A stretch of DNA of 56,039 bases from Actinomycetota bacterium (GTDB lineage: Bacteria; Actinomycetota; Acidimicrobiia; Acidimicrobiales; Ilumatobacteraceae), in contig SXUP01000018.1 of NCBI GenBank assembly GCA_005790505.1, forward strand, positions 1 to 56,039. Reading direction: 5' to 3'. Of the stretch, positions 240-40,339 are shown piece after piece. Under the pieces are notes generated by a model. It was not told the origin of the DNA. It made no database searches and saw only the letters and a program-made list of their open reading frames with translations. The first letter of the stretch is position 1; the number at the start of each line of letters is the position of its first letter. A program made the translations under genes and the position numbers.

Positions 240-380
240 GAAAAATATTTTTTAAATACAGGGCTTGAGATTGGTGTGTTCTGTGGCTGTGGATGGATGG
301 CGTCAGTCTGAGAGGTGGTGATGCAGGGTGTGTCGGCGAATAACGCACTTCATTTCGCACTATCCCCTGGGTAAGCCCCG

Positions 381-27269: not shown

Positions 27270-28004
27270 GTGAATAATTTAAGTATGGCTATTGAACAAG
27301 TTTTACAAGATCCAGATCTAAATAATCTGGTTTACAACGTCCTGTCTTTTGGCGTGGCGGTGATGGTGGGTGCCTTTGTTTATTTCTTGACACAGATGAA
27401 CAGCGTCGCCAAGCAGTATCAAACAGGAGTTGCTGTGTCTGCCATCGTTGTGGGTATCGCTGGATACCACTATCTACGAATTTGGCAGGATTGGTCCGCA
27501 GGTGTACAGAACGAAGGCTATCGCTACGCAGACTGGCTCATCACCGTTCCGCTTCTCGTCATTGAATTGCTGATTGTTCTCGGCGTAACGGCCGATCGTC
27601 GCAAAGCGTTGCTGAAAACTCTTGTTCCAGCATCAGTTCTGATGATTGGACTTGGTTATCCAGGTGAAGTTGCGAACACTGACAGCACAAAGTGGTTATT
27701 TTGGGCGCTTGCAATGGTTCCCTTTCTGTTCATTTTGTTCACCTTGTTCGGGGAACTCAAAGCTGCTGGCTCACGCGAGACCGGCGAAATAGCTACATCA
27801 ATTAGCAATGCAACAAAAATTCTGTTGGTGACATGGTTGGTCTACCCAATCGGCTTCCTATTCCCAGTCATATTTGATGCGACGCATCAAGGTGCCGAGG
27901 CAGGTCGTCAGGTTGCGTATACGGTTGCTGACATAACGGCCAAGGCCCTTTACGGCTTAATGATCTTGAACATCGCCAAAGCGCGTTCTGGATCTTCTCG
28001 ATAA
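27270..28004 (+). CDS. Type-1 rhodopsin, proton pump of the actinorhodopsin/xanthorhodopsin type
   Basis: 244 residues, seven membrane helices. In helix C, RYADWLITVPLLVIE gives Asp88, Thr92 and Glu99, the DTE set of outward proton pumps. Leu96, the spectral-tuning position, predicts green absorption. His67 (GYHYLR) matches the counterion-partner His. The retinal lysine is Lys225 in VADITAKALYGL. The second half of the protein has an FWALAMVPF stretch in helix E with a bulky Trp where carotenoid-antenna rhodopsins need a Gly, so an antenna carotenoid is doubtful. The GTG at 27270 is taken as start; ATG at 27285 is possible. No blh or carotenoid gene is visible nearby. Confidence 0.95.
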   Translation: MNNLSMAIEQVLQDPDLNNLVYNVLSFGVAVMVGAFVYFLTQMNSVAKQYQTGVAVSAIVVGIAGYHYLRIWQDWSAGVQNEGYRYADWLITVPLLVIELLIVLGVTADRRKALLKTLVPASVLMIGLGYPGEVANTDSTKWLFWALAMVPFLFILFTLFGELKAAGSRETGEIATSISNATKILLVTWLVYPIGFLFPVIFDATHQGAEAGRQVAYTVADITAKALYGLMILNIAKARSGSSR

Positions 28005-28016
28005 CGAACAAATTTG

Positions 28017-28050
28017 AAATGGGGCGGGTGCAATTGCACCCGCCCCATTT
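28017..28050. terminator. Bidirectional terminator, perfect 34-nt palindrome
   Basis: Seventeen bases ending GGTGCAA are followed by their exact reverse complement, with no loop mismatch. A T run follows on the plus strand, and A's precede it so that the minus-strand transcript also ends in U's. It lies 12 bp after the rhodopsin stop and 14 bp after the convergent photolyase stop, serving both. Confidence 0.85.
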
Positions 28051-28064
28051 TTGTTTTTGAACTC

Positions 28065-29573
28065 CTAGAGAAGTCCCTGATCAAGTCTGTTCAAAACAGA
28101 CTTAGCTGTTTTTTGGACATCTTTAATATTTGAGAGTTGCTGGGCGCCGCGCACCTGACGAGCAATTCGGGGATTCTTGACGAACGTGGTTTGATGGCGC
28201 ATCATAAAGTCCCAATACAACACAGTAAATGGGCATGCATTCTCACCAACACGCTGCTTGCGGTCGTACTTACAATCACGACAGTGATTGCTCATTCGGT
28301 CAATGTAGGCACCCCCGCTGGCGTAAGGCTTTGTCGCCAGTAAACCGCCATCGGCATAAAGGGACATCCCAATAACGTTTGGCACCATTACCCACTCGGC
28401 AGCGTCAATGAAACTGTTCCACATCCATTGCGTGAACTGTTGTGGATTGACCCCAGAAATAAGGGCAAAGTTGCCAAGAATCATCAGCCTCTCAATGTGA
28501 TGGCTGTATGAACGCTGTTGAATTCCCTCAAGTACATTGCTCATGCAGTTCATCGAGGTTGCCTTTGGATTGGTGAACAATGGCGGCAATGGTCGGTTGG
28601 CCCCAAGATGATTGAGGTTCGCGTAGTCAGGCATCCAACGCCAATAACAGTTCCAGATATATTCCCGCCACCCCAGTATTTGGCGAATAAAGCCCTCCGC
28701 GCTATTAATGGGCACGTGACCCCGCTCAAAGGCCTTTGCAGCCGCATCGAGAACTTCTGCGGGTAGTAGCAAGCCAATGTTGAGATATGGAGACAAGAGA
28801 GAGTGCGCCAAGTGCCAATTGGACTGAATCATTGCATCTTCATGATCGCCAAATGAGGGAAGAAGTTGATCGACAAAATAATCAAGACGCTCAAGCGCGC
28901 CAGAGCGCGTTGTGGCCCAAAGACCTTCCGGGTGGTTTCCCCACACGGTGCTGGGTAAATCCTCAAGCACGGCCTTGTCTGTTTTATCAAGTGGCACAAG
29001 TTTGGGAACCGGCCAACGATCGTGTCCCGTCTTAGGTGGCGGAAGGCGATTTTCCTCATCAAAGTTCCACTTGCCACCAACTGGTTGATTGCCATCCATC
29101 AAGTAGTTCAAGCGCTTGCGTTGCCAACGGTAAAAATCTTCCATCTTGAGGGCTTTTTTGCCCTCAGCAAAGATTGCAAACTCCCCAGGGTGACAGAGGA
29201 ACTGATTTGAAGGTGTCGTGGCGACCCCAAGGGATTTTAGAAGTTCGCGAGCCGAGTAACTATTTGGTTCAGTGGCAACAATATTGGGCGGAATAAACTG
29301 GGCCAAGTGTTCGTCATATCCTTGGCGCATTGAGACGCTCTTACGGTAGTCGACCTCAAACCCTTCTTGCTCCAACTCTTGGGCGAAGCGACGCATGGAC
29401 GTCACGTAAAAGTGGGCCCGTTGGACATGCCACCTTCGGGATGAAATTTTTTCTGACGACTCAATCATCAGGACTCGGTGGGTCGCAGGTGACGCTTCGC
29501 TCAGCGCGCCAATTTGACGATTGAGTTGGTCACCAAAAACCCACACGGTTTTGAGGGATTTTTTCTTACTCAT
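28065..29573 (-). CDS. Fe-S (6-4) photolyase / cryptochrome-related protein (FeS-BCP, PhrB/CryB type)
   Basis: 502 residues. The N-terminal alpha/beta domain begins VWVFGDQLNRQIGAL, typical of the deoxyribodipyrimidine photolyase-related subfamily. The FAD-binding region includes SEGFIRQILGWREYIW and the ARMILGNFALISGVNP-like segment. Four cysteines, Cys343, Cys431, Cys434 and Cys447 (NHCRDCKYD, ENACPF), match the 4Fe-4S ligands of PhrB/CryB. Members repair (6-4) photoproducts or act as blue-light sensors. It is convergent with the proton-pumping rhodopsin, which fits a light-exposed lifestyle. Confidence 0.93.
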   Translation of the reverse strand: MSKKKSLKTVWVFGDQLNRQIGALSEASPATHRVLMIESSEKISSRRWHVQRAHFYVTSMRRFAQELEQEGFEVDYRKSVSMRQGYDEHLAQFIPPNIVATEPNSYSARELLKSLGVATTPSNQFLCHPGEFAIFAEGKKALKMEDFYRWQRKRLNYLMDGNQPVGGKWNFDEENRLPPPKTGHDRWPVPKLVPLDKTDKAVLEDLPSTVWGNHPEGLWATTRSGALERLDYFVDQLLPSFGDHEDAMIQSNWHLAHSLLSPYLNIGLLLPAEVLDAAAKAFERGHVPINSAEGFIRQILGWREYIWNCYWRWMPDYANLNHLGANRPLPPLFTNPKATSMNCMSNVLEGIQQRSYSHHIERLMILGNFALISGVNPQQFTQWMWNSFIDAAEWVMVPNVIGMSLYADGGLLATKPYASGGAYIDRMSNHCRDCKYDRKQRVGENACPFTVLYWDFMMRHQTTFVKNPRIARQVRGAQQLSNIKDVQKTAKSVLNRLDQGLL

Positions 29574-29643
29574 TTGAACTTACGTCGAGCACTTTCTTTG
29601 GCTCAAACCATTATTTGCCGCCATTTAGGTCTAGAGTCCAGGT

Positions 29644-29730
29644 ATGCAACGTCTTCAAAAACTTGTCGCCCCAGTAGTCGTTATTGCGGTCACGCTTGCT
29701 GTTTTTATCGCAAGCGTGACGCGCATTTAA
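29644..29730 (+). CDS. Candidate 28-residue single-helix membrane peptide
   Basis: The reading frame encodes MQRLQKLVAPVVVIAVTLAV and eight further residues ending in VTRI: a basic N-terminus and one hydrophobic helix. A weak ribosome site (GTCCAGG) precedes the ATG. The DNA of the second half forms an 11-bp perfect inverted repeat (29689-29699 with 29710-29720), so an RNA role is an alternative. It lies in the 175-bp gap upstream of the photolyase gene on the opposite strand. Confidence 0.4.
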   Translation: MQRLQKLVAPVVVIAVTLAVFIASVTRI

Positions 29731-29748
29731 AACGTATTCAGACTATTA

Positions 29749-29964
29749 CTAGTCTTTTAAGTTGTCGATACCGTTTCCGAGGGCCATGAACGTTGGAGCC
29801 CAAAGACCAATAAAAATCCCCAGCCGTTCTCCAGATGCTGCATCTTCGGCGACATCCGAGCCACCAACGGTGATCCAGACGACGATGCTGCCAATTACTG
29901 ACAAGAATCCGAGCGCGTACGAAAGGTTTGCGCTGTATCCCAGTGCCTTCAATTTTCTCAACAT
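29749..29964 (-). CDS. Small two-helix membrane protein
   Basis: 71 residues starting MLRKLKALGYSANLSYALGF. Helix 1 covers about residues 12-32 and helix 2 about 48-63 (LGIFIGLWAPTFMALG). The ATG at 29964 is chosen because AGGAGAATT lies just upstream; a longer frame exists but lacks a ribosome site. The C-terminus ends in a short charged tail (NGIDNLKD). No family with known function is recognised. Confidence 0.7.
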   Translation of the reverse strand: MLRKLKALGYSANLSYALGFLSVIGSIVVWITVGGSDVAEDAASGERLGIFIGLWAPTFMALGNGIDNLKD

Positions 29965-30130
29965 AATTCTCCTATTTGATAAATAAAAACTTGGGTTTTC
30001 CCAAGCAAGCGAAAGATAACACGCCAACCGTGGCAGGGGCTTGATGTGCTCGTATTTTTATCCCTCAAGCCCATTTTTTCACAAAATTTGGGCACCAAAT
30101 CAGACCCCCAGCGTCTAGAGACCCGACCAA

Positions 30131-31594
30131 CTACAGGTAGCCACCGTAATTGAAGCCTTGCTTGCCTCTTGGAGCATCGCCATAGACGGCCCGATTGCCC
30201 CGCAATTGCTCTCGCTGCTCAGTCAACATTGGGAAGAAGTCAAGACCATTGAGCTGACTCAACATTGTTTTCCCAGGGCGCTCGTATTTACCCAAACGTG
30301 AGGCATGAATATCCAGGACATTATTAAAAAGTCGGCGCATTTCACGTGCGTTGCCAAACGATTCTCCACGTTTCATATGTCGAATGAGATACTCCACTGA
30401 TTTAATCCCAGCGCCATGCAGGGTGTAGTCATTTTCCGTAACAAGTTTTTCAAAAATGGTGAGCAATTCGTCGTTGCTGAAATCTGGGAAATGAATCACG
30501 GTGTCAAACCGACTCCGTAATCCGGGATTAGATGACAAAAATTCTTCCATTTTTTTGGGATATCCGGCCGCGACCACCACAAACTCTCCACGATGTCCCT
30601 CCATAAAAGTGAGCAATTCTTCAATTGCTTCTGCCCCGAAATCGAGCCCTTCTCCGACGAGTGCGTAAGCCTCGTCAATGAACAACACGCCACCCAGAGC
30701 CGCGGTGCATGCGGCACGAGTTTTCAATGCAGTTTGACCCACGTAGGCCGCCACGAGCCCACTACGGTTCACTTCTACAACGTGCCCAATTTCCAGAATG
30801 CCAAGCGATAGGTACAACTCCCCAATAAGTTGTGCCACAGTGGTTTTGCCTGTTCCAGGATTTCCAGTGAAGACGAGATGTGGAGAGGGCAATACCGCCT
30901 TCATGCCGACACGTGCCCGCAGTTTCTCGACTCTCTGGCGCGCCACTAGTTGATGCACCATTTTTTTTACCGGTTCAAGACCCACCAATTTGTTGAGGGT
31001 GTCAAGCGCGTCAAGAGTAGAAATTCCCGAAGGAGCAATCCGGCGTGATGTCCCTGATAAATTTGTCGAAAGTTTTTTTTCTTCTATACCAAGATCATTG
31101 TCATCATCAAGGTCTCTAGCTATAAATTCTGGCTCTTCAATTTCACTGTGGTTGATCTCTGATTCTAGATCGGAGATATGTTGAAATAGTGCTTGCATAG
31201 TTTTGAACGTGTGCACCATGCTGCCGATGGACTGCTCAATTTGTTCGGTCGACAAGTTGTCATCAATCAATAGTGAGTGGGTCAAGAATGCTTCGCACTT
31301 ATTGTTGTCAGTGTTCTCAAAACGCACTGAACAAAAGGGTAACCACTGCGTCATTTCTATTAGTTTCTGACACAGTATGCCATTTCTACTGATTGATTCG
31401 AGTGCGACATCAAGTGACAACACGTGGCTGCCATTAAATCGCTCGTAGGTTGCCACTTGCACAACAACAGCCGATTCTTGATTGGGGTTAAGAAGAAGTG
31501 GATCGTCCCTCGTTAAGTCTCCTCTTGAAACAATTGTTCCCAAATCAATTATTTTTTCAATGATGCACTCTTCAATTTCTATTAGGTCACTCAT
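30131..31594 (-). CDS. AAA+ ATPase (CbbX/SpoVK type) with N-terminal sensory-type domain
   Basis: 487 residues. Residues 1-150 resemble the YbjN/type-III-secretion-chaperone-like fold, a mixed alpha/beta region with no catalytic motif. An acidic linker (residues about 150-175) leads to an AAA+ module: Walker A FTGNPGTGKTTVAQ, Walker B GVLFIDEAYAL, pore-type VGQTALKTR, sensor-type VVAAGYPKKMEEF, and an arginine finger region NPGLRSRFD. This is the CbbX-like class, in which the ring remodels or pulls on protein partners. It follows the ADP-ribosylglycohydrolase fusion by 14 bp, so the two form an operon controlled from 33.1 kb. Confidence 0.88.
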   Translation of the reverse strand: MSDLIEIEECIIEKIIDLGTIVSRGDLTRDDPLLLNPNQESAVVVQVATYERFNGSHVLSLDVALESISRNGILCQKLIEMTQWLPFCSVRFENTDNNKCEAFLTHSLLIDDNLSTEQIEQSIGSMVHTFKTMQALFQHISDLESEINHSEIEEPEFIARDLDDDNDLGIEEKKLSTNLSGTSRRIAPSGISTLDALDTLNKLVGLEPVKKMVHQLVARQRVEKLRARVGMKAVLPSPHLVFTGNPGTGKTTVAQLIGELYLSLGILEIGHVVEVNRSGLVAAYVGQTALKTRAACTAALGGVLFIDEAYALVGEGLDFGAEAIEELLTFMEGHRGEFVVVAAGYPKKMEEFLSSNPGLRSRFDTVIHFPDFSNDELLTIFEKLVTENDYTLHGAGIKSVEYLIRHMKRGESFGNAREMRRLFNNVLDIHASRLGKYERPGKTMLSQLNGLDFFPMLTEQREQLRGNRAVYGDAPRGKQGFNYGGYL

Positions 31595-31608
31595 TGCATT
31601 ACACCTTT

Positions 31609-33093
31609 CTATTTGGCTTCAGAGACGAACACAGACCACTCTTTTTCAAGAAATTGATTGAACGTCTCGTTATATGGGTTATATAAATCCCATTGCCCAG
31701 CAAGCCATTGATGTGCTTCAGCGGCACTTGAGCCGTGGCGCAGCATGTGCCAAGCTTTCAAAACTATGCCAGTGCGGCTACGCCCTCCATGGCAGTGCAC
31801 CACAACCGGTATCCCTTCATTTATAAAAGCCTCAATTGCGTCGACGGCTTCGCACACTGCATACCTGAGCGCACTATTAACACTTCCCTCCTCGTCGCGC
31901 ATGTACACTTCGCGGCGAAATGGATGATGCTCAAACCGCTTGTCAGTGATGCACATTGACACCACGCCAAAGTCGCGTGGTGCAAGCGCCGCACCCTCGA
32001 GGTTCGCCGCGTAAACACCCAGCGAATCAACTAATTGTGGCCCTCGAGCGCGCTCTGGGGTTGTGCGTGTGCAGTCTTTGAGCCCCAATAAGTTGCGTGC
32101 TAGATCATGTAATTGCACATTGTTGTAGGTTTGCGTCTTACCGTGCATGCCGGTTATGGATCCATTCAAATACGTTGCCCAACGCGAAGGAATTTGCTGC
32201 AAGCCGTACAAAGCGCCGGCCAATGCTCCGGTGACTGCTGCGACGGTGTCGGTATCGCCACCGAGTTCAATTGCTGCAATAATTGCGTCAGAAAATGTCG
32301 TGGTAGTGCGTACTGCCCAAACAGCTTGTGCCAAGCACGTCCATACCGAGCCATTTCCGGGACCCACAAACTCGTGTGGACTCCAGTCACTTGCCAATAA
32401 TTTCTCGTACACTGCGATTTCAGCACTTGATAGAAACTCAAATTGGCGCGCGAATTGCAACACGTCGTCAATGTTTTCCTCAAAGTTGCCCGTCAAGATG
32501 GTGCGTCGAATGAGTTCGGCTGCAAGTGCAGCGCCCACGCCAGCTCCGTCCTCCCAGTGCGTCAAGCGGGATTGTTCAAAGGCCACGCGCACGGTCTCAT
32601 GAGCACCCCAACGAACACCTGCAATGCCAATAGGTGCAATACGCATCAGAGAGCCGTTGCCGGCACTTTGTCCTGTCGCGTTGTGTCCTTGTTGTGCCGC
32701 CGTCCGCCAATCAGAACCTCTTAAGGCGCGCCGCGTGGTGTTACCAATATCTGTCGCGTTTGAGGCCCATGCTTGGAAGCGGTCGAAGGTATGTGAGGGA
32801 TCAAACTTGCAGTTACAGGCAACAATTGACTCGGCTAGAGCAATCGCCATCTGTGTGTCGTCGGTAAATTCACCAGGTTGCCAATCAAACGGACCGCCAC
32901 CGACCATTTCCCCCGTACCTGTTTGGACCGGCGTCGGAAACTTTTTGCGATATTGGCCGGCAGGACCAAACTCAGTAGGAGCTCCCAGGGCGTCGCCAAC
33001 GGCCGCGCCGATAAAGGAACCAACAGCACGCTGTGATTGTGCATGACTGAGTTGTTTGTGTGGTGGGGGATTTATTAGATCGGTTGCTTCCAT
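31609..33093 (-). CDS. ADP-ribosylglycohydrolase fused to a dual-specificity phosphatase
   Basis: 494 residues, two domains. Residues 20-325 are a DraG/ARH-type ADP-ribosylglycohydrolase: GAAVGDALGAPTEF, the metal site GEFTDDTQMAIALAES, GNGSLMRIAPIGI and GGDTDTVAAVTGALAGALYG. It would remove ADP-ribose from proteins or nucleic acid. Residues 345-490 are a dual-specificity-type phosphatase with the CX5R loop VVHCHGGRSRTG and the usual acidic/general-acid region before it. One polypeptide therefore holds two modification-removing activities. It has a strong AAAGGAGACC ribosome site and is divergent from the NrtR-type regulator. Confidence 0.93.
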   Translation of the reverse strand: MEATDLINPPPHKQLSHAQSQRAVGSFIGAAVGDALGAPTEFGPAGQYRKKFPTPVQTGTGEMVGGGPFDWQPGEFTDDTQMAIALAESIVACNCKFDPSHTFDRFQAWASNATDIGNTTRRALRGSDWRTAAQQGHNATGQSAGNGSLMRIAPIGIAGVRWGAHETVRVAFEQSRLTHWEDGAGVGAALAAELIRRTILTGNFEENIDDVLQFARQFEFLSSAEIAVYEKLLASDWSPHEFVGPGNGSVWTCLAQAVWAVRTTTTFSDAIIAAIELGGDTDTVAAVTGALAGALYGLQQIPSRWATYLNGSITGMHGKTQTYNNVQLHDLARNLLGLKDCTRTTPERARGPQLVDSLGVYAANLEGAALAPRDFGVVSMCITDKRFEHHPFRREVYMRDEEGSVNSALRYAVCEAVDAIEAFINEGIPVVVHCHGGRSRTGIVLKAWHMLRHGSSAAEAHQWLAGQWDLYNPYNETFNQFLEKEWSVFVSEAK

Positions 33094-33203
33094 ATGGTCT
33101 CCTTTTCAAGACAAATTAATACACACGTATTTATTCGTATGGTTTAGTGTACAAATGCAATTATAAGCAGGGGGGTGTGGCACGGTCACGGGTGTTTATG
33201 TAA

Positions 33204-33219
33204 ATAATGGTCATCAATA
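33204..33219 (+). promoter_or_regulatory. Candidate operator A, upstream of the NrtR-type gene
   Basis: ATAATGGTCATCAATA resembles the sequences at 34052 and 34539 (core TARTGGTCAT/TAGTCATAT). It lies 46 bp before the regulator start in the divergent spacer that also serves the ADP-ribosylglycohydrolase operon. The match to the other two is partial. Confidence 0.35.
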
Positions 33220-33249
33220 CCTATTTCCTCCCAAAAGGAGTGCAATGAT

Positions 33250-33996
33250 GTGGTGATGGCTAATCCAAAACGCACCAAACAGGGCAACTTCTACTTGTAT
33301 GTCGACACCGTGGTGCTCACGGTGAGCCGAGAAAAATCGCTTGAACCCAAGGCCCGCTTACAGGTGCTCGTAATGCACCGCCCCACAGCCCCCAAAGGGA
33401 AGTGGGCCCTGCCGGGCGGACTTGTGGCCGACTCCGAAGACCTGCCCGACACGGCGTTGCGTATTGTCAAGCGCGAGACGGGTATCACTGTGCCCAAGGC
33501 TGATCTTTTTCAGGTTGGCACCTATGGCAAGCCCAATCGTGACTCAAGATGGCGCGCTATTTCCGTCGCCTATGTAGTGCTTATTTCTGAACCAGAAACG
33601 CCCGCTCCGATAAGCAACTCTGATGACGCGCGCTTCATGTCGTATCGTCGTTTGCGTGACGAAAGTCTTTTGGAGTTCGACCATCGCACGATCATCCGAG
33701 ATGCTCGGCGCGCCGCGCGCCGACAACTTGAAGACACTCCAATCGCCCTTAAGTTTTGCGATAGCGAGTTCACACTCACAGATCTGCGATGGGTATATGA
33801 AGCCTTCGTGCTTGACAGAGTTGACCCAGCCAACTTTCGGCGTAAAGTTGAGCAGGTGAAAGACTTCGTGAGGCCATTGGACTCACTCATTACCTTTGGT
33901 AGCGAACCAGGTCGCCCCGCCCGTCTATACACGGCAGGAAAAACAAGTGAGTTGAACCCACCTGTGCGTTTTCGGCGCAAACTTCGTCCGCGATAA
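33250..33996 (+). CDS. NrtR-type Nudix-fold transcriptional regulator
   Basis: 248 residues. Residues 10-150 form a Nudix domain (GKWALPGGLVADSEDL) whose catalytic box is degraded: where an active enzyme has REUxEExGI this protein has RIVKRETGI, losing two metal-binding acids. Residues 165-235 are a winged helix (FTLTDLRWVYEAFVLDRVDPANFRRK, then GRPARLYTAG), the NrtR DNA-binding part. NrtR proteins repress genes of NAD and ADP-ribose metabolism and release DNA when ADP-ribose binds. Divergent to the ADP-ribosylglycohydrolase. GTG start with AGGAG upstream. Confidence 0.88.
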   Translation: MVMANPKRTKQGNFYLYVDTVVLTVSREKSLEPKARLQVLVMHRPTAPKGKWALPGGLVADSEDLPDTALRIVKRETGITVPKADLFQVGTYGKPNRDSRWRAISVAYVVLISEPETPAPISNSDDARFMSYRRLRDESLLEFDHRTIIRDARRAARRQLEDTPIALKFCDSEFTLTDLRWVYEAFVLDRVDPANFRRKVEQVKDFVRPLDSLITFGSEPGRPARLYTAGKTSELNPPVRFRRKLRPR

Positions 33997-34051
33997 AACA
34001 TCAAAAGTTGTAAGGGGCTGCTCACCTTAACGATGTGACATCCACTATTTA

Positions 34052-34068
34052 TAGTCATATTGTAACTA
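34052..34068 (+). promoter_or_regulatory. Candidate operator B, palindromic, before the vWA remnant
   Basis: TAGTCATATTGTAACTA: the halves TAGTCATA and (reverse complement) TAGTTACA agree at six of eight positions around one central base. This is the best palindrome of the three related sites, 26 bp before the vWA start. Confidence 0.45.
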
Positions 34069-34093
34069 ATAGGTTCTAGAAAGGGGCCCCAAT

Positions 34094-34431
34094 ATGTCTA
34101 ATTTTACTTCACCATCCACCCCACGCCCCAAGAAGTCAAAATCCAAGGAGTCGACCCACGTTGTGGTGCTTCTTGACGTGTCGGGCTCAATGGAGACCAT
34201 CCGCGGTGACGTTGTCGTCTAAAAGGTCTTGCAGAAGAGCCCATCGTGTTTGTCACCATTACCGATAGCGAAGAAAACTCAAGCAGAAAATATTCAATTA
34301 GTCGGCTAAAAAAACTCGTTTTTGAGCTGGAAGCAGCGGGCTGGACATTTGTATTTCTCTCTGGCGGTCTTGACGCATACGGAGAAGCAGGTCGCCTCGG
34401 TGTGAAATCCAGTCATACCCAATCTTTTTAG
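34094..34431 (+). pseudogene. Von Willebrand A domain gene with internal deletion
   Basis: The first part (42 codons) reads up to the metal-site motif VVLLDVSGSMETIRGDVVV and then hits a stop. The second part, from about 34246, continues in a different frame with FVTITDSEENSS, the later half of the same vWA fold, followed by AAGWTFVFLSGGLDAYGEAG. About 60-70 residues that normally separate these blocks are missing. In relatives the gene encodes a vWA protein of more than 200 residues. It is thus a decayed gene or an assembly break. It has an intact ribosome site (AGAAAGGGG) and candidate operator B. Confidence 0.8.
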
Positions 34432-34538
34432 GGAGACAAGGTTGGCACAAAGGTAATGACCGGATGCCGGTCACAGGAAAGGGGAAAAGGACTACGTGCC
34501 TGCATTTCACAGAACCCTGTAACACCCATGTTGAATAA

Positions 34539-34555
34539 TAGTCATATCTACAATA
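34539..34555 (+). promoter_or_regulatory. Candidate operator C, before the second phosphatase gene
   Basis: TAGTCATATCTACAATA shares the exact left half TAGTCATAT with operator B at 34052. It sits 61 bp before the GTG start of the phosphatase gene; a repeat element GAACCCTGTAACACCC lies just upstream (34512-34527). Confidence 0.4.
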
Positions 34556-34599
34556 AAGACCCGGCAGGCAGTCTGGCGGGCAACAGCTAAGGAGGCTAT

Positions 34600-35250
34600 G
34601 TGTCAGTTACACCATCGATTCCATCTCACAGCGAGGGGTCCCTCGTCCACGACGAGAGGCCAGCAAACCCCGCCAATTGGTGGCGACGAATATGCGAGGT
34701 CACCCCAAATCTCTTTTTGAGTGGTGGACTCTCAGGAGATGAAGATCTCGCACTCAACCAACTCAATGAATGGGCAGAGGCGGGCATTACGCACTACATC
34801 GCAGTGCACGGGGAGCGCGACGATAGCGAGTTCGTCCACGCCAATTCAAACATTATTTGTATTGTTGAAGGCGTAGACGATAACGGTACTCCTCGTGACC
34901 CACAGTGGTTTGAAGATGTCACGTCTGCGGCACTCGAAATCCTGGAAGATCCGAACGCAGTCATCATGACCACTTGTTGGATGGGCGTCAATCGCGGCCC
35001 ATCTGCGGCATATGCGATTCTTCGAGCACTCGGGTGGGAGTCTGTTCCGGCATTGCGTGCAATTCGAACAGCAAGGCCAATTGCAGGAATCATCTACGCA
35101 CCGGATGCGGCGCAATGGTGGGTCGAGCGCAATGGTGGCACCAACCGAGAAGCGCGCGAAGCATATAACGAAGTCGTGGAATGGCTATATCGAAATCCAC
35201 TTGACGTGTCATACGTAATCAGGGCTATCGGCTCTCGAACGGCAGCATAG
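34600..35250 (+). CDS. Dual-specificity-type protein phosphatase
   Basis: 216 residues. The core loop is TTCWMGVNRGPSA, a CX5R phosphatase signature in which the usual His before the Cys is replaced by Thr. The nucleophile and arginine remain, so activity is possible. The region around residue 92 (EGVDDNGTPRDPQWFEDVT) has the spacing of a general-acid loop. The C-terminal part (ALRAIRTARPIAGIIYAPDAAQW) matches DSP helix organisation. GTG start preceded by AAGGAGG. It is followed after 10 nt by the deacetylase-like gene. Confidence 0.85.
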   Translation: MSVTPSIPSHSEGSLVHDERPANPANWWRRICEVTPNLFLSGGLSGDEDLALNQLNEWAEAGITHYIAVHGERDDSEFVHANSNIICIVEGVDDNGTPRDPQWFEDVTSAALEILEDPNAVIMTTCWMGVNRGPSAAYAILRALGWESVPALRAIRTARPIAGIIYAPDAAQWWVERNGGTNREAREAYNEVVEWLYRNPLDVSYVIRAIGSRTAA

Positions 35251-35260
35251 GAGGCGGGTG

Positions 35261-36154
35261 ATGAAAGCAATCCCAGTGTTTTATTGCCCCGAGTACTTGT
35301 ATGAAAGTACTTCCATCGACACAACCAACAAGGCCGCGTTTGTCGCATCGTCACTTGATTGTGATCCAATCTTGAATGTACGGGTCGTGAAACCCTCCCG
35401 AGCAATCACGGTAGATGAAATTGAGCTCGTGCATTCACCTGAATATGCACGAGCGATTGCAACTGGCGTGGATAAAAACCTGGCAGACAAAAACGGTATT
35501 GGTGATTGGACTCCAGGTCTTGCAGAATCACGACTGTGGGCAACTGGCGGAGTTCGCGATGCGATCCTTGAATCTATTAAAACGGGTCGCAACGCGGGCT
35601 CTATGTCGAGTGGTCTGCATCATGCGCATTTCGATTACGGAAAGGGTTTCTGCACGATAAATGGGTTGGTCATCGGGGCCCGGTTGGCACTTATTGAGGG
35701 TGTCACACGCGTGCTAATTCTTGACCTTGACGCACACGGCGGCGGTGGAACGGCATCTCTGATCAAAGGTGTTGCAGGAATTGAGCAAGTTGATGTTGCA
35801 GTGAGTTCATTTGATGGTTATCAAAGCACGTCGCAATCTAAATACACCCTCACAAGTGGTTCTGAATATCTTGAGGTGGTGCAGCGCGAACTTGCATCAG
35901 TAGTAGATCCTGCAAGCATCGGTCTGATGATTTACAACGCAGGGGTGGACCCACATGAGGATTGCGACATCGGCGGCAGTCCTGGCATCACCACGGAAGT
36001 GCTCAAGGCACGCGATGAAATGGTTTTTTCATGGGCAGCGGCGCATGGTGTTCCTGTCGCGTTTGTCTTTGCGGGAGGCTATATCGGAAACCGTTTGAGC
36101 CAACAGGAACTCGTCCAACTTCACCGCAACACTATTGCGGCAGCAGCGCGCTAA
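35261..36154 (+). CDS. Histone-deacetylase-like amidohydrolase
   Basis: 297 residues of the arginase/HDAC superfamily. Motifs in order: GLHHAHFDYGKGFCTINGL (the His-His and substrate loop), LILDLDAHGGGGT (zinc-ligand DxDxH), and YNAGVDPHEDC. These metal-dependent enzymes remove acetyl groups from lysine, polyamines or small molecules. The ATG at 35261 is preferred over a GTG one codon upstream because AGGAGG is six bases before it. Placement beside ADP-ribose and phosphate removers suggests a protein-modification role. Confidence 0.92.
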   Translation: MKAIPVFYCPEYLYESTSIDTTNKAAFVASSLDCDPILNVRVVKPSRAITVDEIELVHSPEYARAIATGVDKNLADKNGIGDWTPGLAESRLWATGGVRDAILESIKTGRNAGSMSSGLHHAHFDYGKGFCTINGLVIGARLALIEGVTRVLILDLDAHGGGGTASLIKGVAGIEQVDVAVSSFDGYQSTSQSKYTLTSGSEYLEVVQRELASVVDPASIGLMIYNAGVDPHEDCDIGGSPGITTEVLKARDEMVFSWAAAHGVPVAFVFAGGYIGNRLSQQELVQLHRNTIAAAAR

Positions 36155-36185
36155 GGAGAGCAAAGACCGTGTTTCCGCAAATGCA

Positions 36186-37157
36186 TCAAACAGGGCTGGC
36201 AGGGGGCTGAGTCAAAAAGCTCAGCCCCTCCCAGAAGGATTCAGGCACGATGTTTTCTGCGTAGTAGAGATCTTGCTGGATTTCTTGGGGACTTCTAGCC
36301 CCAATCACCACGCAGGAGACATGCTCGTTGCGTAGACCAAATTGCACAGCCACATGTGGCAGGGAAGTTCCGTGAGACTCCGCCAAAACGGCAAGTGCCT
36401 CGGCGCGCTCAATCAGTTTGACAGGAGCAGCAACATAGTCGAAAGTTTTGTTCTTGCCGGGGTCAGCGAGTAAACCGCTGTTGAAGATACCGCCAAGCAC
36501 AACACCAATATTTCTGTTGGCGCACAGTTCCAACAAAGCAGTTCCAGATTTATTGTCAAGAACCGTGTAGCGACCAGCCAAAAGCAGGCAATCAAGATCA
36601 ATTTGTTGAACGAAACGGGTCAGTGATTCACTCTGGTTCATGCCACAACCGACGGCCTTGATGACGCCTTCTTGGCGCAACTCGATGAGGGTCGGAAAAG
36701 ATTCAGCCATTGCCCACTGTTCATGATCGTCGGGATCATGAACATGAACTACATCTAGATAATCGGTCTGAAGTCGATTGAGGCTCTCGTCAATTGAGGC
36801 AAGAATCGCCCCCCGGCTGAAGTCGAAGATTGGTTCCAAATTGGGCACATTTTTGAAAATTGTTGGTGACAATTCGCCAATTGGCTCACGCAACAATCGC
36901 CCGACTTTGCTGGCAAGTACATACTGCTCACGCGGATACTTTGCGAGGGCATGTCCGAGGCGGATCTCTGATAATCCGTGGCCATATAAAGGTGCCGTAT
37001 CAAAAAACCGCACACCTCCATTCCAGGCGGCATCAACCGTCTGCTGAACATCTTCGTCGGACACTTCCTCAAAGAGGTTCCCAAATGGTGCACAACCCAA
37101 ACCGATTCGTGAAACTTTTGGTCCGCGTGATCCAAGTTGTCGAGTCTCAATAGTCAC
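36186..37157 (-). CDS. Aldo-keto reductase, probable L-fucose dehydrogenase
   Basis: 323 residues of the aldo-keto reductase superfamily. RFFDTAPLYGHGLSEIRLG contains the catalytic Asp and Tyr. The active-site Lys follows in YVLASKVGRLL and the His in DVVHVHDPDD. Genes of this type next to fuconate dehydratase commonly encode D-threo-aldose/L-fucose 1-dehydrogenase (L-fucose to L-fuconolactone). It stops 3 bp short of the dehydratase gene's stop region on the same strand, so the two are one transcript. The specific substrate is inferred from the neighbours. Confidence 0.85.
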   Translation of the reverse strand: MTIETRQLGSRGPKVSRIGLGCAPFGNLFEEVSDEDVQQTVDAAWNGGVRFFDTAPLYGHGLSEIRLGHALAKYPREQYVLASKVGRLLREPIGELSPTIFKNVPNLEPIFDFSRGAILASIDESLNRLQTDYLDVVHVHDPDDHEQWAMAESFPTLIELRQEGVIKAVGCGMNQSESLTRFVQQIDLDCLLLAGRYTVLDNKSGTALLELCANRNIGVVLGGIFNSGLLADPGKNKTFDYVAAPVKLIERAEALAVLAESHGTSLPHVAVQFGLRNEHVSCVVIGARSPQEIQQDLYYAENIVPESFWEGLSFLTQPPASPV

Positions 37158-37160
37158 GGA

Positions 37161-38453
37161 TCAAACACGCCATTCGGCACCATTGGGATAACTCAGCATC
37201 TCAATCGACTCGGGCTTCATTTGTATTGAATAGCCCGGAGCCTGCGGTAACAGATAATGCCCCCGACGCATCTGTACCGGATCAATAAAATGTTCGTGAA
37301 GATGCGATGCATACTCAGTGGTTCGGTTGTCAAGCGAAGCACTCACGCTCAGGTAATCAATTACTGAAATGTGCTGTACATATTCGCACAAGCCAATTCC
37401 ACCGGCATGTGGACACACAGGGACATTGCGTGCCGCCGCCAACAGCAATACCGCCAAAACTTCATTGAGCCCACCGAGGCGACACGCATCGACTTGGACG
37501 TAATCAATGGCTTCGGCCTGCAGCAATTGTTTGAAAATCAAACGATTTGCCGCATGTTCCCCCGTTGCTACACCGATTGGCCTTACCCCGCGCCTGATTG
37601 TTGCGTGACCCAAAATGTCATCGGGGTGAGTTGGTTCCTCAATCCATCGCAGCCCATAGGGCTGCAAATGATTGCTCCAATTGATTGCTTGCTCGACATC
37701 CCACACCTGATTTGCATCAGCCATCAATTGTCGATCGTCACCAATTTCTTCCCGCATCACTTCACAACGCCGCATGTCCGAGGCAACATCAATCCCAACT
37801 TTTGTTTTGAAACTTGTCCAGCCATCTTCAATTGCACCCCGGCAGAGGTCGCGGACTTTGTCTTCGGGATAACCGAGCCAACCTGCAGACGTGATGTAGG
37901 CGGGGTAGCCATCATTTTGTAACTTCTGTAATCGCTTTCGTTGATCAACTCGGGCTCTTGTCAACATCTCAAGTGCCCGCACCTCATCAACCTCGTCACG
38001 CAGATAACGAAAATCAATACAGTCCACAAATTGCGCTGGCTCCATGTCTGATACCAATTTCCAAACTGGCACTCCGCGTGTTTTGGCCCAAAGGTCCCAC
38101 ACTGCATTGACAAGCGCCGCTGTCGCTAGGTGAATGACACCCTTGTCTGGTCCAAGCCAACGAAGTTGTGAGTGGTTGGTGATTTGTCGCCAAAAGGCAC
38201 CCATGTTGTCGACGATGTCGGACAAGTTGCGTCCAACAAGAAGAGTCGAAAGTGCCTCAATAGCGGCACAACAGAGGTCGTTCCCTTGCCCAATCGTGAA
38301 TGTCATGCCGTGACCCTCAAATGGACCGTCAGTGTTCAAAATTACATAGGCAGCCGAGTAGTCGGGGTCAGGATGGTTGGCATCTGAACCTGCCAGCGAA
38401 CGTGATGTGCGGGCACGAAGATCATGGGTTGAAATGGAAAGGATGCGAGTCAT
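37161..38453 (-). CDS. L-fuconate dehydratase
   Basis: 430 residues, enolase superfamily (mandelate-racemase subgroup). The base and metal residues lie in SFKTKVGIDVASDM, LMADANQVWDV and IEEPTHPDD; the C-terminal element GEHAANRLIFKQLLQ and CPHAGGIGLCEYVQH are characteristic of the fuconate dehydratase/ENOSF1 type. It makes 2-keto-3-deoxy-L-fuconate from L-fuconate. The start MTRILSISTHD at 38453 matches the family; an upstream TTG would add six residues. Divergent from the SDR gene. Confidence 0.95.
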   Translation of the reverse strand: MTRILSISTHDLRARTSRSLAGSDANHPDPDYSAAYVILNTDGPFEGHGMTFTIGQGNDLCCAAIEALSTLLVGRNLSDIVDNMGAFWRQITNHSQLRWLGPDKGVIHLATAALVNAVWDLWAKTRGVPVWKLVSDMEPAQFVDCIDFRYLRDEVDEVRALEMLTRARVDQRKRLQKLQNDGYPAYITSAGWLGYPEDKVRDLCRGAIEDGWTSFKTKVGIDVASDMRRCEVMREEIGDDRQLMADANQVWDVEQAINWSNHLQPYGLRWIEEPTHPDDILGHATIRRGVRPIGVATGEHAANRLIFKQLLQAEAIDYVQVDACRLGGLNEVLAVLLLAAARNVPVCPHAGGIGLCEYVQHISVIDYLSVSASLDNRTTEYASHLHEHFIDPVQMRRGHYLLPQAPGYSIQMKPESIEMLSYPNGAEWRV

Positions 38454-38533
38454 TACAATCAATAATAGCAATTTTGAATACGAAAAATAATACCCGAAAA
38501 TCCCACAGCAAAGGTCGAAGACAAGGAGACATG

Positions 38534-39238
38534 ATGAGTCGTCGCATCGTTGTTATCACAGGCTCAGCGGGTGGAATTGGTTCGGCAATTGGAAGCCGTT
38601 TCACTAAAAATAATGACACAGTGATTGGACTTGACCTTGCAGATGGGTTTGATCTTTCCCAGACCCAACATTGTGATGACGCAGTCAGACAAATTATTGC
38701 TGAGCATGGTCGCATTGATATTTTGTGCAACAATGCGGGCATCAGCAGTGTCGGTGACGTGGTCACATCAACACTCGAGGACTGGCAAAGGGTTTTTGCT
38801 GTCAATGTTTTTGGAATCGCCAATATGTCTAGATCCGTCTTGCCGCACATGCGTCATGAGCACTCTGGCTGCATTGTCAATACGTGTTCTATTGCTGCAA
38901 CAGTTGGTCTTGTCGAAAGGGCGGTCTATTCAGCGTCTAAGGGGGCGGTGCTTGCTTTGACAAAGGCGATGGCAGCCGACGAAATCGCCCACAATATTCG
39001 GGTCAATTGTGTTTCGCCCGGAACCGTGGCGAGTCCCTGGGTGGAGCGGCTTGTCGCGACAACGGTCGACCCCTCTCAAACCATGGAAGCACTTCGAAAG
39101 CGTCAACCAATGGGTCGCCTAGTTGAATGTGATGAAGTTGCTGAGGCAATTTTTTATCTTGCCGCATCAAGCACTTTTACTACTGGTGCAGAACTCCTGA
39201 TTGATGGCGGCATCGCTGGCATCCGAATTGTGCAGTAG
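38534..39238 (+). CDS. SDR dehydrogenase, probable 2-keto-3-deoxy-L-fuconate dehydrogenase
   Basis: 234 residues, classical SDR. Cofactor motif TGSAGGIGSAIG, NNAGISSVGD, catalytic Ser in NTCSIAATVG and the YSASKGAV Tyr-Lys pair; the C-terminus ends GAELLIDGGIAGI. An acidic residue after strand 2 (VIGLDLAD) favours NAD. In fuconate pathways this enzyme oxidises the keto-deoxy acid to the 2,4-diketo acid. The ATG at 38534 follows AAGGAG. Position within the fucose cluster supports the assignment, but it could be another SDR. Confidence 0.85.
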   Translation: MSRRIVVITGSAGGIGSAIGSRFTKNNDTVIGLDLADGFDLSQTQHCDDAVRQIIAEHGRIDILCNNAGISSVGDVVTSTLEDWQRVFAVNVFGIANMSRSVLPHMRHEHSGCIVNTCSIAATVGLVERAVYSASKGAVLALTKAMAADEIAHNIRVNCVSPGTVASPWVERLVATTVDPSQTMEALRKRQPMGRLVECDEVAEAIFYLAASSTFTTGAELLIDGGIAGIRIVQ

Positions 39239-39247
39239 TTTCAAGCC

Positions 39248-40339
39248 ATGACGCTGCGGATTGCCTTGGTTGGGGGACCGATGTACGACCATTTGTATCC
39301 CGTGTTTGATGAATTTGATGTTGAGGTGATTGTGCACGCAGATCATCCAACGCTGAATCGACGGGTGGCACAAATGCTTGCCGCCGGTGAACGAATTGAC
39401 CTGTTGTCGACTCATTCAAAATATGCACCATCGCAGGCTCACTGGTTGCAACCACTTGATTCGCTCATCGGAGTGGACTCAGATTTATTGCTTGACTCAC
39501 TTGCTCCCTTGGCTGTCGATCTATGTCGCTATAACGGCCAACTCCTGACCCTTCCGCGACTTATTGATGTGCGAATCATGTGGCTCCGCAAAAATCAAGT
39601 TGATGTCGTGCCCACAACATGGCAGGAAATTATTGACAGCCCTCTCCGATTCGGTTTTCCTGGCAGAGAGTCAGGGCTTTTTGGAACATTCTTTGAAATG
39701 GTTATTGGGGCGGGTGGGTCTATTTTCGATCAAGATCAGCGTCCTTGTTTCATTTCTGAACATTCGATACGTGCGATTGAAATGTTGACTTCACTTGCGA
39801 CAAAACTGCCGACTGATTTACCAAACTGGCATTATGATCAAGTTGATGATGCTCTGCTGCGCGGTGTAGTAGACGCTTCAGGTGCATGGCCAGGTGCATG
39901 GGGTCAGATTCTTACCTCAGGACAGGGTGACTTGTTGCAGCCTTTCCGTTATCCCTCAGGGCTCCAAAGATGGGTCAGTTATGCCGGATGTCATGCATGG
40001 GGCATTCCAACAACTGCTGGTGATCTTGATTCGGCAGTCACGTTGTTGCGGTATCTCATGTCGGCAGATGTTCATGCTCGTGATGCCCAAAGTGGAAGCA
40101 TGTGTGCCAACGTGCAAGCTCTCTCAAAAGTCGAACCAGTCAATGAAACTGATCGTCAACGCCTTTTGATTACTCGAGACACGATTAACCAGGCGATGAT
40201 TACCTACCCATCTCATGTTCGGTTCCCAGAAGTCGAGGATGCTGGATGGATGTTGATAAATGAGGCGATTCGTGGTCTCAAATCGCCGCAGGATGTGGTC
40301 GAGAGCCTGCAATCCATCGCTCAATCAGTGTTTGCTTGA
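39248..40339 (+). CDS. Solute-binding-protein-like protein lacking a signal peptide
   Basis: 363 residues. The sequence has the look of a type-1 extracellular solute-binding protein (periplasmic sugar-binding fold): alternating segments such as LLTLPRLIDVRIMWLRKNQV, PTTWQEIIDSPLRFGFPGR and WGIPTTAGDLDSAVTLLRYL. However it begins MTLRIALVGGPMYD directly, with no signal peptide or lipobox. It may be a cytoplasmic sensor or chaperone for a fucose metabolite. It follows the SDR by 9 bp and has no ABC permease beside it. Confidence 0.7.
   Translation: MTLRIALVGGPMYDHLYPVFDEFDVEVIVHADHPTLNRRVAQMLAAGERIDLLSTHSKYAPSQAHWLQPLDSLIGVDSDLLLDSLAPLAVDLCRYNGQLLTLPRLIDVRIMWLRKNQVDVVPTTWQEIIDSPLRFGFPGRESGLFGTFFEMVIGAGGSIFDQDQRPCFISEHSIRAIEMLTSLATKLPTDLPNWHYDQVDDALLRGVVDASGAWPGAWGQILTSGQGDLLQPFRYPSGLQRWVSYAGCHAWGIPTTAGDLDSAVTLLRYLMSADVHARDAQSGSMCANVQALSKVEPVNETDRQRLLITRDTINQAMITYPSHVRFPEVEDAGWMLINEAIRGLKSPQDVVESLQSIAQSVFA

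Follow-up and report, generated by a model that had tools for sequence, protein, structure and literature searches.

An ADP-ribosylglycohydrolase island with a predicted chaperone-type AAA+ motor and a phosphatase-deacetylase-like gene pair, probably run by one NrtR-family switch protein

The window analysed here, i.e. the whole stretch of 56,039 nucleotides of contig SXUP01000018.1 (assembly GCA_005790505.1, Acidimicrobiia, Ilumatobacteraceae), carries at positions 30131-36154 an island of six gene families that includes an ADP-ribosylglycohydrolase (ARG) fused to a phosphatase domain. An initial annotation, made from the letters and their open reading frames (ORFs), had described these genes as erasers of covalent marks that act together under ADP-ribose control; its gene content agrees with the ORFs and domain matches, which give the following layout.

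30131-31594, minus strand: AAA+ protein (Pfam AAA and AAA_lid_6)
31609-33093, minus strand: ARG-phosphatase fusion, ARG/DraG-type plus DSP-type (Pfam ADP_ribosyl_GH, DSPc and Tc-R-P)
33250-33996, plus strand: NrtR-family regulator, Nudix plus winged-helix domain (Pfam NUDIX and NrtR_WHD)
about 34094-34455, plus strand: remnant of a vWA gene (tblastn with the intact vWA of locus L111)
34600-35250, plus strand: DSP2, a CX5R phosphatase-like protein (alignment of 15 proteins)
35258-36154, plus strand: deacetylase-like enzyme of the histone deacetylase (HDAC) fold (Pfam Hist_deacetyl and alignment)

The fusion gene lies 14 bases upstream of the AAA+ gene; NrtR is divergent from this pair and is followed on the plus strand by the broken vWA gene, DSP2 and HDAC, with seven bases between the last two. 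The Pfam scan covered nine island and flank proteins (28065-38471), of which two, DSP2 among them, gave no match. In what follows G000 is the window's own genome, L111 is the locus G021:C17 and L122 the locus G011:C243; gene maps of relatives are mechanical longest-ORF choices with approximate start positions.

The fusion matches ADP_ribosyl_GH (PF03747) at E 7.7e-65 and 219.8 bits against a cut-off of 26.2, and its phosphatase part passes Tc-R-P (PF22785; 33.2 bits, cut-off 27) and falls slightly below the cut-off of DSPc (E 6e-8; 33.0 bits, cut-off 33.5). It carries the motifs TDDTQM, GGDTDT and HCHGGRSR; an alignment of 13 ARG proteins shows TDDTQM and LGxDxDT without variation and HCHGGRSR, the phosphatase loop, with almost none, and the ARG motifs presumably have the metal-site roles of their counterparts in DraG, Tri1 and ARH3. 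The fusion also matches the NCBIfam Tri1 model (E 1.2e-41) with 142.7 of the 490 bits set for the equivalog, and a PDB structure of dinitrogen-reductase-hydrolase type, 6dre, which we take to be Tri1. Identity with true DraG or Tri1 was rejected, as the equivalog cut-offs are missed. The ARG protein Tri1 gives immunity to a rival's ADP-ribosyltransferase toxin, and these two matches, together with the lack of a transferase among the Pfam matches of the nine scanned proteins, would suit an island directed at the toxins of rival bacteria instead of those of phages; with the Tri1 threshold missed and no secretion or toxin family among the same Pfam matches, we judge this alternative rather improbable.

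The regulator is a family relative of, and not identical with, the equivalog 'ADPR responsive transcriptional repressor' (70.9 of 400 bits), and translation may begin from the ATG at 33256, since several relatives align from residue 3. The degraded Nudix box noted in the initial annotation is borne out by comparison, the window protein reading RIVKRETG where the consensus is REUxEExG. Among 12 aligned NrtRs both glutamates are changed in two (window and L111) and one is changed in seven, and the box is intact in three (L047, L122 and L052, a paralogue on contig C33 of the window's own genome), a series that suggests a stepwise loss of hydrolase activity within one genus. The PDB relatives include AraR (5bs6) as the best match and SoNrtR (3gz5) as the third. 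The available part of PMC4666351 lists R41, N43, K76 and R98 among the residues through which SoNrtR contacts ADP-ribose; by our own reading of a pairwise alignment, with numbering shifted by three, both arginines are kept in the window protein (R44 and R100), and they are retained in all 12 aligned NrtRs. The window NrtR may sense ADP-ribose. The paralogue L052 (G000:C33:41404-42084; 42% to the window NrtR) occupies a site whose flanks match relatives' loci and which lacks the ARG and HD phosphatase genes that relatives carry there; close to it lie, among others, genes for an IlvD/EDD-type dehydratase, an inositol-phosphate synthase, a TPP enzyme and DUF3054.

The AAA+ protein comprises, in order, a predicted TY-chaperone domain (residues about 1-150), a linker (about 150-190), a motor of the CbbX/SpoVK/EccA clade (about 195-453) and a tail ending in GYL; this tail is conserved in 14 aligned family members, in which Y486 is invariant and the ending mostly GYL. 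The motor model superposes on CbbX (3syl_B) with Z 27.1, 38% identity, 270 aligned and a root-mean-square deviation (rmsd) of 3.2, the full-length model being of low confidence (pLDDT 64.8). Modelled alone from three sequences (pLDDT 69.1), the N-domain matches 9uwz_A best (Z 11.6, 124 aligned, rmsd 2.9) and YbjN (6vu7_D) at Z 9.9 (127 aligned, rmsd 3.4); rows 1-33 of this comparison (Z 7.6-11.6) consist of type III chaperones, the YbjN family and four otherwise named structures (8q8o, 2plg, 3cxj and 4h5b), and the next row is a designed protein at Z 6.6. As modelled, the N-domain is of the TY-chaperone/YbjN fold. Support from sequence is weak but agrees: Pfam YbjN matches three of 14 family N-domains (best 3.5e-4), the window member not being one of them, and the N-domain profile found no match in the PDB by sequence. 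The protein misses the NCBIfam equivalog cut-offs of CbbX (215.5 of 459.25 bits), SpoVK (245.6 of 422.95) and EccA (209.2 of 466.65), and an assignment as true CbbX was accordingly rejected. In this clade the N-domains differ between members and may serve to recruit substrate, and ribulose bisphosphate stimulates CbbX (PMC10659427, available part); TY-type chaperones have been proposed as client-binding parts of ARG systems (PMC9503650). A TY-CbbX fusion fits both ideas, and is unmentioned in the available part of PMC10659427.

Relative to the intact vWA of L111, the remnant retains two pieces, residues 2-48 and residues 125-204, which lie in different frames; about 76 residues are lost between them, and there are further in-frame stops. 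The change of frame, the large loss and the extra stops together indicate a pseudogene with several lesions rather than one sequencing error, in line with the broken gene of the initial annotation. An intact paralogue (L420, G000:C2:45078-45734) is 61% alike to the G021 protein, so that a vWA partner could act in trans. The promoter of L420 bears the palindrome GTGTAGTTTCTACAC, and a similar palindrome precedes the corresponding gene in three same-genus genomes.

In DSP2 the CX5R loop (C126...R132) is invariant in the 15 aligned proteins, and a viral relative (L265:3294-4004) matches DSPc at 38.9 bits against 33.5. The HDAC passes Hist_deacetyl at 96.3 bits (cut-off 27.9), has the bacterial HDACs 9gkv and 9rje as PDB relatives, and shares with the other members of a ten-protein alignment the invariant H121, H122, D158, H160, D231 and Y275, which we take to be candidate zinc or catalytic residues. 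Matches to DSP2 occur in 27 of 149 genomes, four of them very weak; in 14 of the 27 the contig also carries an HDAC no more than 3.4 kb away, and nine of these 14 (counted by hand) have the two genes on the same strand and at most 150 bases apart. The DSP-HDAC pair is conserved in bacteria. DSP2 also stands near HD_4-like genes in L113 and L115, with DUF1810 in L113 and an HDAC nearby.

Relatives of the pair are found in viral contigs as well. IMG/VR yielded 183 candidate stretches for HDAC, 111 for ARG and five for DSP2, of which 80, 80 and five loci were kept and examined with up to 6 kb per side at a profile threshold of E 1e-4. A DSP2-like gene was detected in 10 of the 80 HDAC loci kept, some being near-duplicates (L263, L264, L265, L267, L271, L276, L277, L282, L301 and L326): in nine it lies directly upstream of HDAC with weak scores (E 1e-4 to 7e-7), and in the tenth, L265, about 2 kb from HDAC with a strong score (2e-53). 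Replication and nucleotide-metabolism genes recur beside these viral pairs, the scanned neighbours including ribonucleotide reductase, primase-helicase-like, DNA methylase, ParB-like and integrase genes. None of the 165 viral loci has NrtR, AAA, vWA, HD4, DUF1810 or d16 by profile, and in none does ARG occur together with HDAC or DSP2. A literature search on phage HDACs, judged by titles and abstract openings of the papers listed, gave nothing useful. That the island is what remains of a prophage or of viral cargo would accord with the IMG/VR relatives of ARG-DSP, DSP2 and HDAC, with the adjacency of DSP and HDAC in viral loci and with PHROG matches of ARG (4.4e-53), AAA (2.2e-30), NrtR (1.4e-14) and a relative's vWA (3.3e-48). 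However, DSP2 and HDAC have no PHROG match, the Pfam matches include no structural phage family, and the best viral identities for ARG (47%, phosphatase part included), HDAC (46%) and DSP2 (37%) compare with 78, 72 and 67% in bacteria, and a viral origin of this kind therefore seems to us very improbable.

An ARG-DSP homologue is present in 18 of 32 same-genus genomes, the window's own included. NrtR stands divergent beside ARG in 14 of 20 mapped ARG loci and does not in four, and two end inside ARG; AAA adjoins ARG in nine of the 20, and vWA lies beside NrtR in seven of the 14 NrtR loci if the broken gene of the window is counted. ARG modules sit in several different flank contexts. DUF1810 or HD_4 profiles match near the fused ARG-DSP in L175, L177, L180, L181 and L184, and four further loci (L168, L173, L179 and L183) are titled Bifidobacterium breve, titles which look wrong as their ARG is closest to Acidimicrobiia relatives.

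The initial annotation had staked its case on a neighbourhood conserved in relatives, and five of the six families are found together in G021, with parts of the set in G011 and G111. G021:C17 keeps the window order, with AAA (62%), NrtR (80%), an intact vWA, DSP2 (67%) and HDAC (69%), and is interrupted by a NERD-helicase gene and a small ORF; the former (L111:5847-7484), a NERD plus UvrD-type helicase, matches the defence-associated PADLOC model RTasNERD-Hel at 1.5e-43, NERD being, we assume, a nuclease of the restriction endonuclease (REase) fold. In G011:C243 NrtR (50%) is divergent from a series of vWA, pentapeptide-repeat protein, d16, DSP2 and HDAC. In G111, of a sister genus, ARG directly precedes AAA (58%) and is 78% alike over the C-terminal 189 residues that the contig holds, and in G064, G101 and G114 an NrtR-like gene (30-33%) lies within one gene of AAA, no ARG being seen in the stretches fetched around it. 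DSP2-HDAC and ARG share a contig, about 10 kb apart, in G026; by tblastn neither DSP2 nor HDAC lies beside ARG in any of 19 fetched ARG loci. As relatives repeat parts of this neighbourhood, we consider the association to be more than chance, and by this comparison of sequences the genes appear to form a unit, with limits, whose pieces combine repeatedly.

This distribution also bears on whether the genes could serve housekeeping turnover of ADP-ribose and NAD, in which NrtR would act as in NAD-salvage regulons, the ARG, phosphatase and HDAC enzymes would recycle ADP-ribose and O-acetyl-ADP-ribose, and there would be no role in conflict. Several NrtR-family members do regulate NAD metabolism (PMC4666351, available part), and ARG-type ARH3 acts on O-acetyl-ADP-ribose, to go by a reference title within PMC9503650. 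Such a role is nevertheless unlikely, if worth serious consideration, since the set is patchy and decaying and occurs in several flank contexts, and since no NAD-synthesis family appears in the Pfam matches of the nine island and flank proteins (two without match) or among five neighbours of the second NrtR (one without match).

The NrtR/ARG, vWA and DSP2-HDAC promoters share a sequence element. Motifs were learned solely from the NrtR/ARG promoters of other genomes (six or eight promoters; widths 14, 16, 20 and 24), the window and L111 being left out, and were then used to rank all positions in both. The sites predicted in the window are as follows.

33141-33164, minus strand: predicted operator in the NrtR/ARG divergent promoter (rank 3 of 112,032)
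33205-33220, minus strand: weaker operator-like site beside the NrtR start (rank 13 of 112,048; its six training sites were picked after a joint motif run that included the window)
34049-34072, plus strand: predicted operator upstream of the vWA remnant (rank 2 of 112,032)
34536-34559, plus strand: predicted operator upstream of DSP2-HDAC (rank 1 of 112,032)

With the width-24 motif TTAGGGTCACATCTACTATAAACC, from eight promoters, the DSP2, vWA and NrtR/ARG promoters take ranks 1, 2 and 3 in the window, and the vWA, DSP2 and NrtR promoters ranks 1, 3 and 4 in L111; this variant, the fourth-best of its width and one of 48, was selected after the ranks were known. Over the 48 variants, many of which are shifted or reverse copies of one another, the window's DSP2 promoter comes first 19 times and within the top ten 37 times, its worst rank being 173; the vWA and NrtR/ARG promoters usually rank below it. 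The joint motif run at width 16 scored 192.8 against 140.0 (standard deviation 3.9) for 20 shuffles, a null that ignores relatedness. GTAGATRTGACYATWA has a single exact match in the 2.01 Mb genome, in the site before DSP2, and two mismatches admit two further genome matches and one control match; the first whole-genome pattern gave five matches, two in the island and three elsewhere, and none in the control. DNA conservation between the window and L111 takes in the DSP2 promoter (blastn 34510-36147). Of the co-regulation proposed in the initial annotation, what stands is that these three promoters carry an element which relatives have at their NrtR/ARG promoters; on this sequence evidence, co-regulation of NrtR/ARG, vWA and DSP2-HDAC is likely, and the island is probably run by one switch protein.

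Taken together, the genes present, their domain identities and catalytic motifs, the recurring linkage and the shared promoter element lead us to favour, with a probability of roughly 0.6, a single stress or defence unit under NrtR control, an extension in this lineage of the ARG-centric systems that Iyer et al. predicted (Viruses 2022, 14:1977; PMC9503650). A number of observations weigh against it. ARG is missing from the G021 island, and ARG and DSP2-HDAC were found side by side in the window only; among 80 ARG loci kept from a wider contig collection, DSP2 occurs in none and an HDAC-like gene in one, about 7 kb off and distant in sequence. The vWA gene is dead in the window. When the window was scored with a matrix 32 bases wide, trained on six ARG promoters, none of the island promoters was among the ten best positions. 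In the pairwise alignment with SoNrtR, two of the four ligand residues compared are missing (N43 is T46 and K76 is E76), and the best PDB match of the regulator senses arabinose. ARG, NrtR, DSP2 and HDAC have no PADLOC 2.0 match at E 0.01, the AAA+ protein weakly matching models of other AAA-type proteins (IetA best, at 7e-8), and the viral DSP2 and HDAC relatives would equally fit a phage counter-weapon. TY-AAA is within 1.5 kb of ARG in two of the same 80 loci, and the rarity there of TY-AAA, DSP2 and HDAC makes these additions look lineage-specific.

The same distribution raises the alternative of two neighbouring independent units, in which a DSP-HDAC pair landed beside an NrtR/ARG/AAA/vWA system. 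The absence of DSP2 from the 80 loci, the occurrence of the pair alone in viral contigs and the lack of a clustered ARG in 13 of the 14 fetched stretches where DSP2 and HDAC lie within 3.4 kb all speak for such a composite. What makes us doubt it is that the pair stands beside NrtR and vWA in both G021 and G011, in two different arrangements, and that motifs learned from foreign NrtR/ARG promoters put the DSP2 promoter so often at or near the top; two independent units are, in our estimation, a credible but improbable explanation.

Under the favoured reading of one NrtR-controlled unit, and presuming repression, ADP-ribose as the ligand, each of the substrates and an anti-phage purpose, the island would work as follows. 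The NrtR-type repressor, its Nudix box decayed, would bind its ligand without hydrolysis, and would occupy operators before ARG-AAA, NrtR itself, vWA and DSP2-HDAC until ADP-ribose or a related ribosyl nucleotide rises, e.g. when a phage or rival ADP-ribosylates host proteins, at which point it would release. The ARG domain would then take ADP-ribose off proteins, and the fused DSP domain and DSP2 would dephosphorylate the released product or a derivative; the TY-CbbX AAA+ protein would bind and remodel the damaged client via its chaperone-like N-domain, and HDAC would remove an acetyl (or other acyl or amide) group from a related product or client. The phosphatase and HDAC may also strip phosphate and acetyl groups from proteins, as the initial annotation supposed. 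A more elaborate version, which we offer as a long shot, is motorised ADP-ribose repair, in which a hydrolysis-free sensor switches on a TY-CbbX motor that grips ADP-ribosylated or misfolded clients and is triggered by ribose phosphate released by ARG and the phosphatases, by analogy with the sugar bisphosphate that triggers CbbX, and in which DSP-HDAC edits a diffusible ADP-ribose-derived signal. If this were so, the pair would strip phosphate and acyl groups from a signal used by either side.

Genes on either side were excluded from the island. The block 36186-39238 (aldo-keto reductase, enolase-superfamily and SDR-like genes), with the gene at 39248-40339, is found without island genes in G016:C1 (L439), its aldo-keto reductase being present in two of 25 same-genus genomes searched; the photolyase-related gene at 28065-29573 is present in 23 of 25. 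The latter (PF04244) adjoins, within 27270-29573, what we take from its sequence to be a rhodopsin-like gene. An empty integration site was sought via both flanks and not found, synteny being too scrambled. Window positions 319-367 and L111 positions 928-976 are 88% alike over 49 bases, in surroundings otherwise unrelated.

The initial annotation held that no described system has this set; the core is, however, the ARG-centric system of PMC9503650 (section 3.8), reported there from actinobacteria as ARG with a fused or adjacent rhodanese/DSP-type phosphatase, a Nudix transcription factor of NrtR type (or a WYL one-component regulator) and a vWA or TY chaperone, and the only paper returned by a literature search combining the system's terms. 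Such systems are predicted to reverse phage ADP-ribosylation, with the phosphatase viewed as processing the released ADP-ribose, and the anti-phage option of the initial annotation comes close to this mechanism. The window resembles them in its ARG domain, fused R-P/DSP phosphatase, Nudix-type regulator, vWA, TY-chaperone domain and actinobacterial host, and in having no ADP-ribosyltransferase or sirtuin among the Pfam matches of the nine proteins; ARG-centric systems sometimes carry REase and helicase genes (PMC9503650), a pattern which the NERD-helicase of G021 fits. It differs in that the TY domain is fused to a CbbX-like AAA+ motor, that an extra DSP-HDAC operon carries the same promoter element and that vWA is merely a relic. 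The main text of PMC9503650 has neither an AAA nor an HDAC partner: histone deacetylase appears once, within a reference title, and elsewhere 'deacetylase' stands for the aminosugar enzyme of PF01522, next to another protein, or occurs in a reference.

Other comparisons place the parts. The motor shares the fold of the CbbX/SpoVK/EccA clade, whose N-domains vary (PMC10659427, available part), and differs from its members in the TY chaperone fold of its modelled N-domain and in the lack of a Rubisco, sporulation or type VII gene among scanned neighbours. SoNrtR of Shewanella and AraR of Bacteroides have the same Nudix plus winged-helix build, and the contact arginines are kept (PMC4666351, available part); in the window N43 and K76 are lost, and the genes of the island do not make up an NAD or arabinose regulon. 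With DraG, Tri1 and ARH3 the fusion shares fold family and metal-site motifs, and unlike them it has an added C-terminal DSP domain. In DarTG and DraT-DraG an eraser enzyme removes ADP-ribose; in contrast to these, the window has no transferase among the Pfam matches of its scanned proteins. Among the papers listed by literature searches on them, titles and abstract openings showed no experimental test of an ARG-centric system. To these systems the island adds a candidate regulon, with an operator-like element before NrtR/ARG, vWA and DSP2-HDAC, an AAA+ motor with a predicted chaperone-type client domain and a DSP-HDAC pair known from bacteria and viral contigs, additions which make bacterial sensing and undoing of phage ADP-ribosylation testable with few proteins and DNA sites. 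The core was predicted in 2022; the chaperone motor and the phosphatase-deacetylase pair shared with viruses look new.

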